DNA from: Ralstonia soli
GTDB lineage: Bacteria > Pseudomonadota > Gammaproteobacteria > Burkholderiales > Burkholderiaceae
NCBI RefSeq assembly: GCF_023955655.1
Contig: NZ_JAMXHT010000006.1
Span: 124,001 to 188,000 of the forward strand
Length of the DNA: 64,000 nt
Reading direction: 5' to 3'
The position numbers and the translations under genes were made by a program. Of this stretch, positions 21,820-52,406 are shown one piece after another (position 1 is the stretch's first letter; every line of letters begins with the position of its first letter). The notes beneath the pieces were generated by a model that saw only the letters and a program-made list of their open reading frames with translations, made no database searches and was not told where the DNA came from.

Positions 21820-22761
21820 ATGACCGCTTGTCTGCCCCGTCTTGCACATTGCCTGTGCGCGCTCGGTCTTGCCGCGCTGGCTGCCGCTGCCCCGGCACGC
21901 GCCGCCATCTCCGTGACCGACGACACCGGCGCCACCGTCACGCTGCAGCGCCCGGCGCAGCGCATTGTCAGCCTTGCGCCGCACGCGACGGAGCTGCTGT
22001 TCGCGGCCGGCGGCGGCCCGCGCATCGTCGGCACGGTGGCCTACAGCGACTACCCGCCGCCCGCGCGCGACATTCCGCACGTGGGCGACAACCGCTCGCT
22101 GGACCTGGAGCGCATCGCCGCGCTCAAGCCCGACCTCGTGGTGGTCTGGCGCCACGGCAACGCACAAAAGCAGATCGACCGGCTGCGCGCACTGGGGATT
22201 CCGCTGTACTTCTCCGAGCCGCACCGCATGAGCGACATTCCGCGCTCGATTGAAACGCTGGGCACGCTGCTCGACACCCGCGCCAGCGCGCACGATGCCG
22301 CCCAGCAATTCCGCCAGCGCGTCGATGCGCTGCGCCAACGCTATGCCAGCCGGCCGCCGGTGCCCGTGTTCTATCAGGTGTGGGAACAGCCGCTGATGAC
22401 ACTCAACGGCCAGCACATCTTCTCCGACATGCTCGCGCTGTGCGGCGGCCGCAACGTGTTTGCGGGCGAGCCGCTGCTGGTGCCGACCGTGTCGATGGAA
22501 GCCGTCATCGCGGCCAACCCCGAAGTGCTGCTGACCGCAAGCATGGGCGCCACGCAGGGCAACCGCCCCATTGACACGCTCGATGCATGGAAGCGCTGGC
22601 CGCAATTGCTGGCCGTGCAGCGCGGCAACCTGTTCACCATCAACGGCGACCTCATCAACCGCTTCGGCCCGCGCCTGGTCGACGCAGCCACGCTGCTGTG
22701 CGAAGACCTGGAGCAGGCGCGCACGCGGCGCCTGGGGCAGCAGGCCACTGTAGGACGCTAG
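21820..22761 (+). CDS. btuF: Periplasmic cobalamin-binding protein BtuF-type
   Basis: A 313-residue periplasmic binding protein of the helical-backbone (class III) metal/siderophore type. A signal peptide ends near residue 28 (APARA). Family motifs: RIVSLAPHATELLFAAG, IVGTVAYSDYPPPARDIPHVGD, LDLERIAALKPDLVVVW and VSMEAVIAANPEVLL. It would deliver corrinoid to BtuCD, which is encoded in the opposite arm of the same locus. It starts 13 bases after cobD. The gene ends in TAG at 22759-22761, and the first unit of the 21-bp repeat array begins at the very next base. Confidence 0.92.
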   Translation: MTACLPRLAHCLCALGLAALAAAAPARAAISVTDDTGATVTLQRPAQRIVSLAPHATELLFAAGGGPRIVGTVAYSDYPPPARDIPHVGDNRSLDLERIAALKPDLVVVWRHGNAQKQIDRLRALGIPLYFSEPHRMSDIPRSIETLGTLLDTRASAHDAAQQFRQRVDALRQRYASRPPVPVFYQVWEQPLMTLNGQHIFSDMLALCGGRNVFAGEPLLVPTVSMEAVIAANPEVLLTASMGATQGNRPIDTLDAWKRWPQLLAVQRGNLFTINGDLINRFGPRLVDAATLLCEDLEQARTRRLGQQATVGR

Positions 22762-23223
22762 GGTCGGGGCTCGCAGCATCGCCTGCGGGTCGTTGAGCGC
22801 CGGCTTTGGGCCTCTGAGCACCAGCGATGACTCCCGGAGAGTCCGCAGCGAAGCTCGGAGCATCGACCTCGGGTCTCTGAGAGCCAGCTTCGAGTCTCCA
22901 GGCACCCGCTTTGACTCTCGGAGAGCCAGCAGCGGGGCTCAGAGCGTCAACCTCGGGGCTCTGAGAGCCAGCTTCGAATCTCCAGGCACCCGCTTTGACT
23001 CTCGGAGAGCCAGCAGCGGGGCTCAGAACGTCAACCTCGGGGCTCGGAGAGCCAGCTTGGCATTCCAGGGCGGCCAATGTCGGCTCTCAAAGCGTCGGCA
23101 CTGGCTCTCGACGTGCCGGCAGCGAGTCCTTGAGTATCGGTGTCGCGTCTTTAAGCATCGAGATCGGGTCTCGGAGCACCAACATCGGGTCTTGGAGAGC
23201 CGGCGTCGAGGCTCAGCGCATCA
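22762..23223. repeat. Array of about 22 degenerate 21-bp tandem repeats between btuF and cobC
   Basis: This 462-bp stretch is built entirely of 21-bp units with the core TCGGGKCTCNGAGNRCC. The phase is constant from 22762 to about 23056, then slips by one base, and continues to 23223. Units at 22867-22950 and 22951-23034 form an 84-bp direct duplication differing at only three positions; a third partial copy follows. Many units contain short palindromes such as GGCTCT-G-AGAGCC and CTCT-CGG-AGAG. The array begins at the base after the btuF stop and its last bases overlap the cobC stop codon, so it fills the whole convergent intergenic gap. As 21 is a multiple of three, long open frames with 7-residue repeats run through it on both strands. 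There is no start signal or family match for them, so I do not call a gene. Confidence 0.93.
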
Positions 23224-23808
23224 CCGGTTCCAGAACAACAGCACCGGCAAGGAGCCCGGCGCATCGGGCCGCACGCGAAAGCCGCAGGCACCGCCCCATT
23301 GCAGCGGCCATTGCAGCGTGTCGGCCAGCGGGCGCTGCAGCCAATGGGCCGCAAGCGCGCGCATGCAACCCGCGTGCGTGACGGCCCAGACGCACGATGC
23401 CTGGGTGGCTACCGTCGCATCGGCCCAGGCCGTCACGCGCGCCAGCAAATCCGCCGCCGATTCCCCGCCATGCGGATTGCCATGCACGAGGTCACGCGCC
23501 CAGCGGTCGACTTCCGCACGCGGGATGTCGTCCCACCGGCAGCCCTCCCAGGTGCCGAAATCGAGCTCCATCAAGTGCGCCTCGACCTCGATGGCGGGCA
23601 GCGGCGCCGCTTGCGCCATGGCTTCGGCCGTCAGACGGCTGCGCTGCAGCGGGCTCGCCAGCAAGCGTTGCGGGGTATGGGCGGCGAGCTTTTCGACGAT
23701 GGCGGAGGGGTCCGGGTCCATCGGCGAATCGAGTGCCAGATCGGTGCGGCCATAGCAGAGACCGGCCGTCATGGCAGGCCGCGCGTGGCGGATCAGGATG
23801 ATGTCCAT
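23221..23808 (-). CDS. cobC: Histidine phosphatase family, alpha-ribazole phosphatase type
   Basis: A 195-residue member of the phosphoglycerate-mutase-like phosphatase superfamily, the last gene of the btuB-led operon. The catalytic RHxR motif is IRHARP with His8, and the second histidine is His145 in VTHAGC. The acid/base region is ELDFGTWEGCRWDDIP. It would remove the 5'-phosphate from alpha-ribazole phosphate or adenosylcobalamin phosphate in the nucleotide-loop pathway. The start ATG at 23808 overlaps cobS by 16 bases. Its stop TGA lies inside the last repeat unit of the adjoining 21-bp array. Substrate assignment rests on context. Confidence 0.9.
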   Translation of the reverse strand: MDIILIRHARPAMTAGLCYGRTDLALDSPMDPDPSAIVEKLAAHTPQRLLASPLQRSRLTAEAMAQAAPLPAIEVEAHLMELDFGTWEGCRWDDIPRAEVDRWARDLVHGNPHGGESAADLLARVTAWADATVATQASCVWAVTHAGCMRALAAHWLQRPLADTLQWPLQWGGACGFRVRPDAPGSLPVLLFWNR

Positions 23809-30008: not shown

Positions 30009-30232
30009 GTTTTGAAAAGACAAGAAGCGTCAGCCGGACCCGTTCCCCCGCGGGTCGCTGGCAGCAGGATCTCGATGCGGTTCCCTCACATCGGCTCAGA
30101 GCCGGCTCACGATCCGTAGCGAGCAGTCCGAAGTTGGCCCGAGAAACGCAGCCGCACATGGGTACGGCGAGTATCACAGGGCCAAGATCGGACCGCGCAG
30201 CAGGATCGTGGACCGGTTCTCGGAGATCCACC

Positions 30233-30459
30233 GTCCTGGCCGGTATCCGGGCTGGCGAAGCGGCGTGTCCGCCTTCCCATTCCCGAAGGAACAGTGGCTG
30301 GTTGGACACACCGCGCGGCGCCCTCCTCTTCTTGCGAGAGATGGCGGGCACACGCGACGTTCGCTTACCGTTGCGGGGGCAGCGCAGGTTGGCGCATCGC
30401 TTGGGGCGGGCGCTCCCTGCTTCCCGTTTAACTGCAGATGGTGCTGCGGGCACCAGGAC
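30233..30459 (-). promoter_or_regulatory. Cobalamin riboswitch
   Basis: On the minus strand the conserved cobalamin (AdoCbl-class) elements appear in order: closing stem GTCCTGG (30459-30453), ACGGGAAGCAGGG, CTGCCCCCGCAACGGTAA, the B12-box AGCCACTGTTCC, then ATGGGAAGGCGG, and finally GCCAGCCCGGATACCGGCC with the closing arm CCAGGAC (30239-30233). It lies 225 bases upstream of the btuB start and would repress the whole btuB-btuC-btuD-cobO-cobT-cobS-cobC run when adenosylcobalamin is plentiful. No T-run terminator is obvious between it and btuB, so translational control is more likely than attenuation; the 225-base platform shows nothing else that I recognise. Confidence 0.95.
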
Positions 30460-30646
30460 GCCGCGAAGTTTAACGGAAAAGCACACCAAACCCCATCTGC
30501 CCGTGCTACCAGGCCAAAATGCACGGGCCGGCACCGTTGTGCCCTTACCGCCCCGCATGGCGCCTCACCTTGCGCATCCGTATGGAGGAAAGGCGTTGCG
30601 CGCATGATCGGCTAAAATCCCCCCACTCGATTCTGATTGACACCCA

Positions 30647-31498: not shown

Positions 31499-31501
31499 CA
31501 G

Positions 31502-31718
31502 TTTCCCTGCCTGGTTCGCCATGGCCATTAATTCCTTGAACCGATAAGCATTGCTTGGTGCGGGATATGCCGTGTGGGCGAGCGCGTCTTCCAGTGCACA
31601 GCGTGCGACGCAAGTCGTACGCTCCCTGCGCCGGTGATGTACCCGAAATGCGGCTTCCGCAGCCACTCTGAACCTCACTTGGGTTCAGGATGCGGGTCTA
31701 GCGGCCGAGGTGGGGACC
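31502..31718 (+). ncRNA. ssrS: 6S RNA
   Basis: 6S RNA binds sigma-70 RNA polymerase by mimicking an open promoter. The 5' end TCCCTGCCTGGTTCGCC pairs with the 3' end GGCCGAGGTGGGGA (T31504 with A31716, nine continuous pairs including two wobbles). The 5' part CCTTGAACCGATA and the 3' part CACTCTGAACC ... GGGTTCAGGATGCGGG correspond to conserved blocks of the Escherichia coli 6S RNA. The position after zapA and before an intrinsic terminator also fits. Ends are approximate to a few bases. At about 215 nt it is longer than the E. coli RNA, the excess lying in the apical arm. Confidence 0.8.
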
Positions 31719-31723
31719 CAACA

Positions 31724-52321: not shown

Positions 52322-52406
52322 GCCCGAGTGGTGAAATTGGTAGACGCAGGGGACTCAAAATCCCCCGCCGCAAGGCGTGCCGGTTCGATTCCGGCCTCGG
52401 GCACCA
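52322..52406 (+). tRNA. tRNA-Leu (anticodon CAA)
   Basis: An 85-base tRNA with the acceptor stem GCCCGAG / CTCGGGC, encoded ACCA end, D-loop AATTGGTAGA, anticodon stem GGGGA / TCCCC around loop CTCAAAA (anticodon CAA), the long type II variable arm CGCCGCAAGGCGTG, and the T arm CCGGTTCGATTCCGG. It reads UUG codons. A terminator follows six bases later. Confidence 0.97.

Follow-up and report, generated by a model that had tools for sequence, protein, structure and literature searches.

Arrays of dyad-symmetric 21-bp units at gene ends in Ralstonia soli and its genus, candidate sites for a DNA-binding protein

The btuF-cobC junction

In the window, i.e., the whole 64,000-nt stretch of Ralstonia soli DNA that was analysed, a btuF-like gene (21820..22761, + strand) and a cobC-like gene (23221..23808, - strand) converge on an array of 22 consecutive, dyad-symmetric 21-bp units that occupies positions 22762-23223 (462 bp). 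The stop codon of btuF (22759-22761) meets the array, and that of cobC (23221-23223) ends it. Both gene names are based on ORF reading and on tblastn in relatives; a codon-usage gene caller also recovered the two genes and called none between them. The 11 nearest named relatives of btuF (84-93% identity) are Ralstonia or unclassified Burkholderiaceae. The neighbouring ORFs as read, together with a cobalamin riboswitch, fit two converging groups of B12 genes. At its gathering threshold, Rfam 15 gave three matches in the window, namely this riboswitch (30221-30472, - strand), a 6S RNA (31501-31720, + strand) and a tRNA (52322-52403, + strand), none of which lies close to the array.

The lag-21 self-match of the array was 0.549, and none of 1000 mononucleotide shuffles exceeded 0.340. 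When ten arrays of the same genome were used to train a periodic HMM with 1-bp slips allowed, it placed 22.1 units at 22760-23223, which run from the stop codon of btuF into that of cobC. An earlier sequence-only reading had described a 22-unit, 21-bp tandem array between the two stops, and both analyses upheld it, except that the single one-base slip it reported became approximately three under the shared profile (two insertions and one deletion of 1 bp each). TRF recovered periods of 21 and 42 bp, as well as a strong 84-bp higher-order period over 22828-23069. Based on TRF and block comparison, two four-unit blocks of 84 bp (22867..22950 and 22951..23034) mismatch only at 22874, 22894 and 22944. 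The three differences previously noted are thereby confirmed, and the near identity of the blocks supports a block duplication and, with it, the recent expansion that had been proposed.

Two other origins were considered for this array. A protein-coding repeat, the main objection raised beforehand, was rejected even though one + frame is open, given that no gene is called there and that 1-bp slips are frequent in the family. A phage or plasmid origin was also rejected, as a 501-bp array query had no match to either at E 1e-5.

Placement, range and turnover of the arrays

The genome carries at least 17 arrays, of which 13 are strong (L127-L138 and the window's own, L145), with approximately 13 to 28 units each, and four are more divergent (L139, L140, L143 and L144), with 9 to 23 complete units. 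In its own genome, the window array had 13 BLAST matches, which fall in 10 places and have 66-100% identity. A pattern search of the genome matched 106 times on one strand and 89 times on the other, as compared with 29 and 7 times for the reversed pattern, and R1, a 63-column sequence-only model of this genome's own flavour built from 46 trimers, gave at least 141 matches. For wider tallies, we used 37 arrays from this and related genomes, which are non-independent since eleven of them lie at one orthologous junction. L141 held no array on inspection. L142 is doubtful and stands outside the 17; its 14 units are counted in the 37-array tallies, where their removal alters the counts at pairs 2-18 and 4-16 little, and it was dropped from the edge-distance and slip analyses. 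The arrays at L256, L257, L261-L263, L204 and L216 are based on visual reading only.

Where an array of this genome overlaps a called gene at all, it does so at the array edge and by at most a few bases. Nine of the 17 lie between convergent genes, seven between co-directional genes and one between divergent genes. Convergent junctions were more frequent than among the gene pairs of the window, a baseline that includes the array's own junction (9/17 vs 8/56, P=0.0002; for the strong arrays alone, 6/13, P=0.006). In 32 of the 37 arrays, orthologues included and five others omitted, the median distance from the array edge was 45 bp to a stop codon (n=48, nine of them above 250 bp) and 248 bp to a start codon (n=16; P=0.0001, or P=0.006 for the own arrays). 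L146 was entered as co-directional through a spurious frame, and tblastn gives it the usual convergent neighbours. The convergent junctions and stop codons at which the sequence-only reading proposed to look for further copies are thus both favoured among the arrays of this genome. Stop-side placement alone cannot tell function apart from tolerance, since upstream regions are longer anyway and orthologues were counted.

Other repeats occur near or around some of the arrays. Three arrays of this genome (L127, L133 and L137), one of G005 (L151) and one of G015 (L159) lie inside an inverted repeat with arms AAATTCAAGGCGCCATCTA / TAGATGGCGCCTTGAATTT; at L005, the place of L127, it has 206 nt at 88%. 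The same arm pair is found with no array inside at L132, L144, L156 and L262 and as a second pair in L137. Additionally, the hexamer GCTCTT is repeated 21 times at L094 1936-2061 (G000:C26), near an array.

At E 0.01, R1 matched 12 of the 16 genomes of the genus; in the 249 genomes of the family, it matched 12 at E 1e-4, none of them from outside the genus. R2, a model built from 57 trimers of other flavours, matched all 16 genus genomes; at E 0.01, it matched 33 of the 249 family genomes; 16 of these are the genus genomes and 17 belong to the 233 others, with 13 of the 17 at E above 0.001 and a chance expectation of approximately two. Outside the genus, G228 had 13 matches, and its 21-bp array, which is clear (period score 49 of 63), reaches up to a called stop codon; G028 and G048 were borderline (35 and 34), and G077 had no period (28). 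A strict restriction to the genus was therefore rejected; as far as these models detect it, the array family is a typical feature of the genus and also has at least one relative beyond it. The related repeats in all 16 genus genomes also show that the repeat is no single-locus artefact, in answer to the earlier worry about the assembly.

We compared five junctions in 15 congeners and a sixth (L130) in seven, detecting arrays mainly by the own-flavour profile and the period score, by which faint arrays of other flavours may escape. At btuF/cobC, no array was detected in any of the 15 congeners, whose aligned ends lie 9-78 bp apart; from this comparison, the window array is a lineage-specific gain. 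At the L128 junction, 13 of the 15 have only 2-22 bp, while G004 and G012 carry, at the same position, an array of a different flavour with core GGTTCNGAACC.

The L129 junction, which adjoins a gene read as ung, holds arrays in 10 of 16 genomes, our own and nine congeners, as judged with the own-flavour profile. Eight of the nine congener arrays share a flavour unlike that of this genome, and the unit number ranges from approximately 10 to 24. A divergent array became visible in G004 with another starting consensus, G006 has a gap of 19 bp, and no array was detected in G007, G010, G012 and G013, with one flank missing in three. In L201 (G011), beside ung, five identical 21-bp units follow one another at 337-441, a recent expansion in an older array.

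At the L136 junction, next to a gene read as exonuclease I, no array was detected in the 15 congeners. Thirteen of them have a short spacer with an A-tract, a hairpin and a T-tract, which together have the look of a two-way intrinsic terminator; in the remaining two, whose spacers measure 1482 and 850 bp, this arrangement is absent. Our genome has an array there, and neither such a hairpin nor, by scan, a terminator-like site. At the L130 junction, six of seven congeners have a 159-164-bp spacer and no detected array; most of this spacer seems, by eye, to be kept in our genome, with the array directly at the stop codon. For L134 (flhB), none of the 15 congeners yielded the second flank of the junction, and L204 (G001) and L216 (G013) show 21/42-bp arrays by eye.

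Structure of the repeated unit

Based on 154 complete units from ten own arrays, and also on the 37 arrays equally weighted, the unit has the consensus YYGRSNCTYNRAGNSYCRRCG, a near-perfect dyad. G3 and C17 are almost fixed, and C7, T8, A12 and G13 are strongly preferred; positions 2, 4, 16 and 18 exchange freely within purines or pyrimidines and rarely across. In the 37 arrays, this purine/pyrimidine constraint is sharp at 2-4, 7-9, 11-13 and 16-18, and positions 5, 6, 10, 14 and 15 are loose. The self-symmetry of the mean profile was 4.54 of a possible 4.75 (96%), as compared with an average of 2.05 and a best of 4.00 in 2000 column shuffles. Its dyad axes lie at position 10 and equally at 20.5, so that each helical turn of the array holds one half-site, in an orientation that alternates from turn to turn: YGRSNCTY and RAGNSYCR oppose each other, and dyad centres alternate approximately every 10.5 bp. 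A dyad repeated in helical phase is what an array bound by a protein would be expected to display, and it supports this possibility as the sequence-only reading had listed it. Between flavours, the array consensus covaries at pairs 7-13 (C-G in 29/37, T-A in 4/37) and 6-14, with P values that are too small since eleven arrays share one orthologous junction.

Slips of the period were strongly biased. Over 222 units of the own arrays, the shared profile gave 36 one-base insertions and one deletion, and array-specific profiles gave 34 and none; the other arrays, L142 excluded, had 36 insertions and no deletion over 362 units. Between fixed anchors, spacings of 21, 22, 23 and 20 bp occurred 45, 3, 1 and 0 times in the own arrays and 50, 1, 3 and 0 times in the others. 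The insertions fell mostly close to dyad centres, a location that is partly forced, since these positions are low in information and are the default of the aligner. In the strong arrays, the spacing extends to 22 bp and almost never drops to 20 bp, which may reflect selection or mutation bias.

In a dyad kept as an RNA stem, A.C pairs would be avoided, G.T pairs tolerated and changes compensated. Among 492 units of the 37 arrays, pair 4-16 was G-C in 130, A-T in 105, G-T in 99, A-C in 105, C-G in 13 and other in 40, and pair 2-18 was C-G in 142, T-A in 120, T-G in 87, C-A in 124 and other in 19. The counts at 4-16 indicate that the two halves are constrained separately, as in the site of a dimer and unlike in a stem. 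In the 13 strong arrays, no within-unit pair exceeded z 1.7 against within-array shuffles, no compensation was seen, and both strands (26 in total) folded no better than column-shuffled controls (mean z +0.23), with single strands ranging from -2.81 (L132) to +2.40 (L133). With shuffling across ten arrays, matches at several within- and between-unit pairs fell below expectation (z ~ -3) and two standard-pair counts rose above it (z ~ +3); we draw no conclusion from these values.

Some departures were found elsewhere. In all 37 arrays, pairs 7-13 (z 2.4) and 9-11 (z 2.6) were above within-array shuffles; pair 9-11 reached z 4.1 in the eight arrays at the ung site, and the group L139, L140, L143, L144 and L197 showed compensation at 4-16 (z 3.0) and 6-14 (z 2.9). 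The mean folding z of the other 24 arrays was -0.46; L197, L143, L139, L159 and L201 each had at least one strand below -2, and L148 and L149 exceeded +2. The hairpins proposed by the sequence-only reading are thus not supported as the conserved feature in the flavour of the window array, in which compensation is lacking and folding stays at control level, while divergent exceptions exist. These comparisons suggest that the thing conserved in the strong-array flavour is DNA, not RNA hairpins; stems may matter in some flavours. As a separate observation, the divergent arrays L139 and L143 of this genome, L261 (G012), L204 (G001) and L216 (G013) contain units with a central run of five or more A or of five or more T, often flanked by complementary stems; the core of the window array, by contrast, is CTCNGAG.

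A repeated terminator, one of the roles suggested beforehand, was not found either: a scan detected no GC stem with a T run within 22762-23223, its only hit being at 23241-23262, in cobC, and such a scan can overlook stems that absorb the T run, as in L219, a plain A-tract/hairpin/T-tract in which nothing was found. A RUT-like test was passed by 21 of the 26 strong-array strands and also by 98% of 200 random 300-nt pieces of the window; it is therefore non-discriminating with regard to a Rho site. The C content of the window array strands is approximately equal to their G content.

Possible roles and known systems

From the separately constrained halves, the helical phase, the placement at gene ends and the one missing terminator, we infer a boundary made with a DNA-binding protein. 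Tentatively, the arrays may be helically phased sites for a putative protein that would make a two-way transcription boundary, a reading that we find quite possible, if short of probable. The conserved thing would be a site in double-stranded DNA that a dimeric or polymerising protein recognises, with one protomer per helical turn and all protomers on one face of the helix. The bound row would look alike from either side and could thus form a boundary in both directions at gene ends, where it might stop or pause RNA polymerase leaving either gene, insulate neighbouring genes and perhaps absorb supercoils. The 96% symmetry, the sharp purine/pyrimidine code, the symmetric flavour changes at 7-13 and 6-14, the insertion excess, the convergent enrichment, the stop-side edges, the replacement at L136 and the arrays in 10 of 16 genomes at L129 favour such a boundary. 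On the other side, all 15 congeners at btuF/cobC and 13 of 15 at L128 manage without an array, mostly with a very short spacer, so that an array is not needed at these junctions. Harmless insertions would also be expected on the stop side, with promoters excluding them from the other; additionally, some divergent arrays have compensated pairs and better folding, and the 37 arrays are non-independent. No candidate gene was found for the putative array-binding protein. A fuller version, in which a genus-typical system would use a protein filament, with a protomer per turn in alternating orientation, that could replace intrinsic terminators and whose flavours would shift on both half-sites together, appears doubtful to us.

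The arrays could instead be selfish or neutral tandem DNA that arose by copying and slippage, spread within the genome and persisted where it was harmless, i.e., behind stop codons and in convergent gaps. Gain, variation and tolerance are all well explained in this way: the btuF/cobC gaps of the 15 congeners are short and hold no visible substitute, unit number varies from approximately 10 to 24 at one orthologous junction, the window array has a recent 84-bp duplication and L201 five consecutive identical units, and five arrays lie inside another interspersed inverted-repeat element. Such an origin accounts less readily for a position-specific purine/pyrimidine constraint and a dyad preserved across diverged flavours, for 36 insertions against one deletion with 20-bp spacings almost absent, for the arrays that 10 of 16 genomes carry at one junction, or for an array in the place of a terminator, and we regard it as somewhat unlikely.

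A role in RNA, as a terminator or mRNA 3' stabiliser acting through folded palindromes or through a Rho-utilisation site with C every 10-11 nt on both strands, would agree with the gene-end location, with the absence of an intrinsic terminator at one array-bearing junction and with the compensated stems of the divergent arrays. The C residues of both strands are also regularly spaced, through C7 and C17 in one and G3 and G13 in the other, and this spacing resembles the rut descriptor (YC)N9-13 given in PMC9160355. The lack of a terminator-like site in the window array, the 13 strong arrays with no compensatory change and with folding equal to the control, and the absence of enrichment in the RUT-like test make this role improbable. 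By analogy with BIME-2, which is described as binding gyrase strongly (PMC2817692), the phased sites might draw DNA gyrase to convergent gene ends, where positive supercoiling would be relieved. The convergent enrichment and the half-sites alternating every 10.5 bp would suit such a topological element, while many congeners have no array at the same junctions; we hold it to be quite unlikely.

Our results suggest a family of gene-end elements that is read as DNA rather than as RNA and is undescribed, as far as our searches of the open-access literature show. If the two-way boundary is real, a whole genus would mark many of its gene ends by long phased DNA arrays, and in at least one place an array would stand instead of a terminator. 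Junctions that hold an array in one species but are only a few bases long in another would then be natural before/after pairs for the separation of convergent genes. If the arrays are selfish, they would still form an apparently undescribed repeat family, with exact gene junctions and a strict dyad code, and a clean case for the origin and spread of bacterial tandem arrays.

Among known systems, bidirectional intrinsic terminators are likewise found at convergent gene ends, and the L136 array stands where 13 of 15 congeners have what looks like one; unlike them, the window array has no stem with a T run. Iteron and operator arrays are direct repeats of approximately two helical turns, with their sites on one face. 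The arrays described here differ from these in being dispersed over at least 17 places, and no replication or regulator gene is among the named neighbours of the window array. Rho sites are described as C-rich, G-poor and unstructured over approximately 78 nt, with C every 11-13 nt (PMC6407284, PMC9160355). The arrays resemble the VNTR or minisatellite loci used for MLVA in Ralstonia and Burkholderia in being tandem, often intergenic and variable in copy number. The units of MLVA loci are given as 5-18 bp (PMC4860299) and as mostly 6-9 bp (PMC1853098), and "21 bp" is absent from the main texts of these two papers.

REP and BIME elements are described as short palindromic units in intergenic regions, mostly between convergent or co-directional pairs and often clustered, with proposed roles in termination and gyrase binding (PMC3733652, PMC2817692). 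Our arrays are similarly intergenic and prefer convergent and co-directional junctions (9 and 7 of 17). Nevertheless, they keep a strict head-to-tail 21-bp period over many units, whereas REPs are described as single, paired or alternating. They also differ in that the strong arrays show no stem compensation and that, at 4-16, A-C occurs as often as G-T, with five divergent arrays as partial exceptions. In 183 units of the 13 strong arrays, the GTAG tag was seen 5 times, as compared with 5.4 expected, and the CGTC tag 37 times, as compared with 28.6 expected (sd 3.9), i.e., in at most a minority of units. The Y1_Tnp family was matched in all 16 genus genomes. One such REP-transposase-like gene was found in our genome (L241:4524-5393, G000:C3), where it precedes a large gene read as gltB, and no array was detected within the 10 kb read around it. 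In all, six loci of 9-10 kb around Y1_Tnp genes, five of which represent the conserved gene and the sixth a different copy in G002, had no detected array. Based on the tags, the stems and the RAYT neighbourhood, a RAYT-associated REP was rejected. As far as its sequence can tell, the array family is REP-like in its place and is not a REP by its structure.
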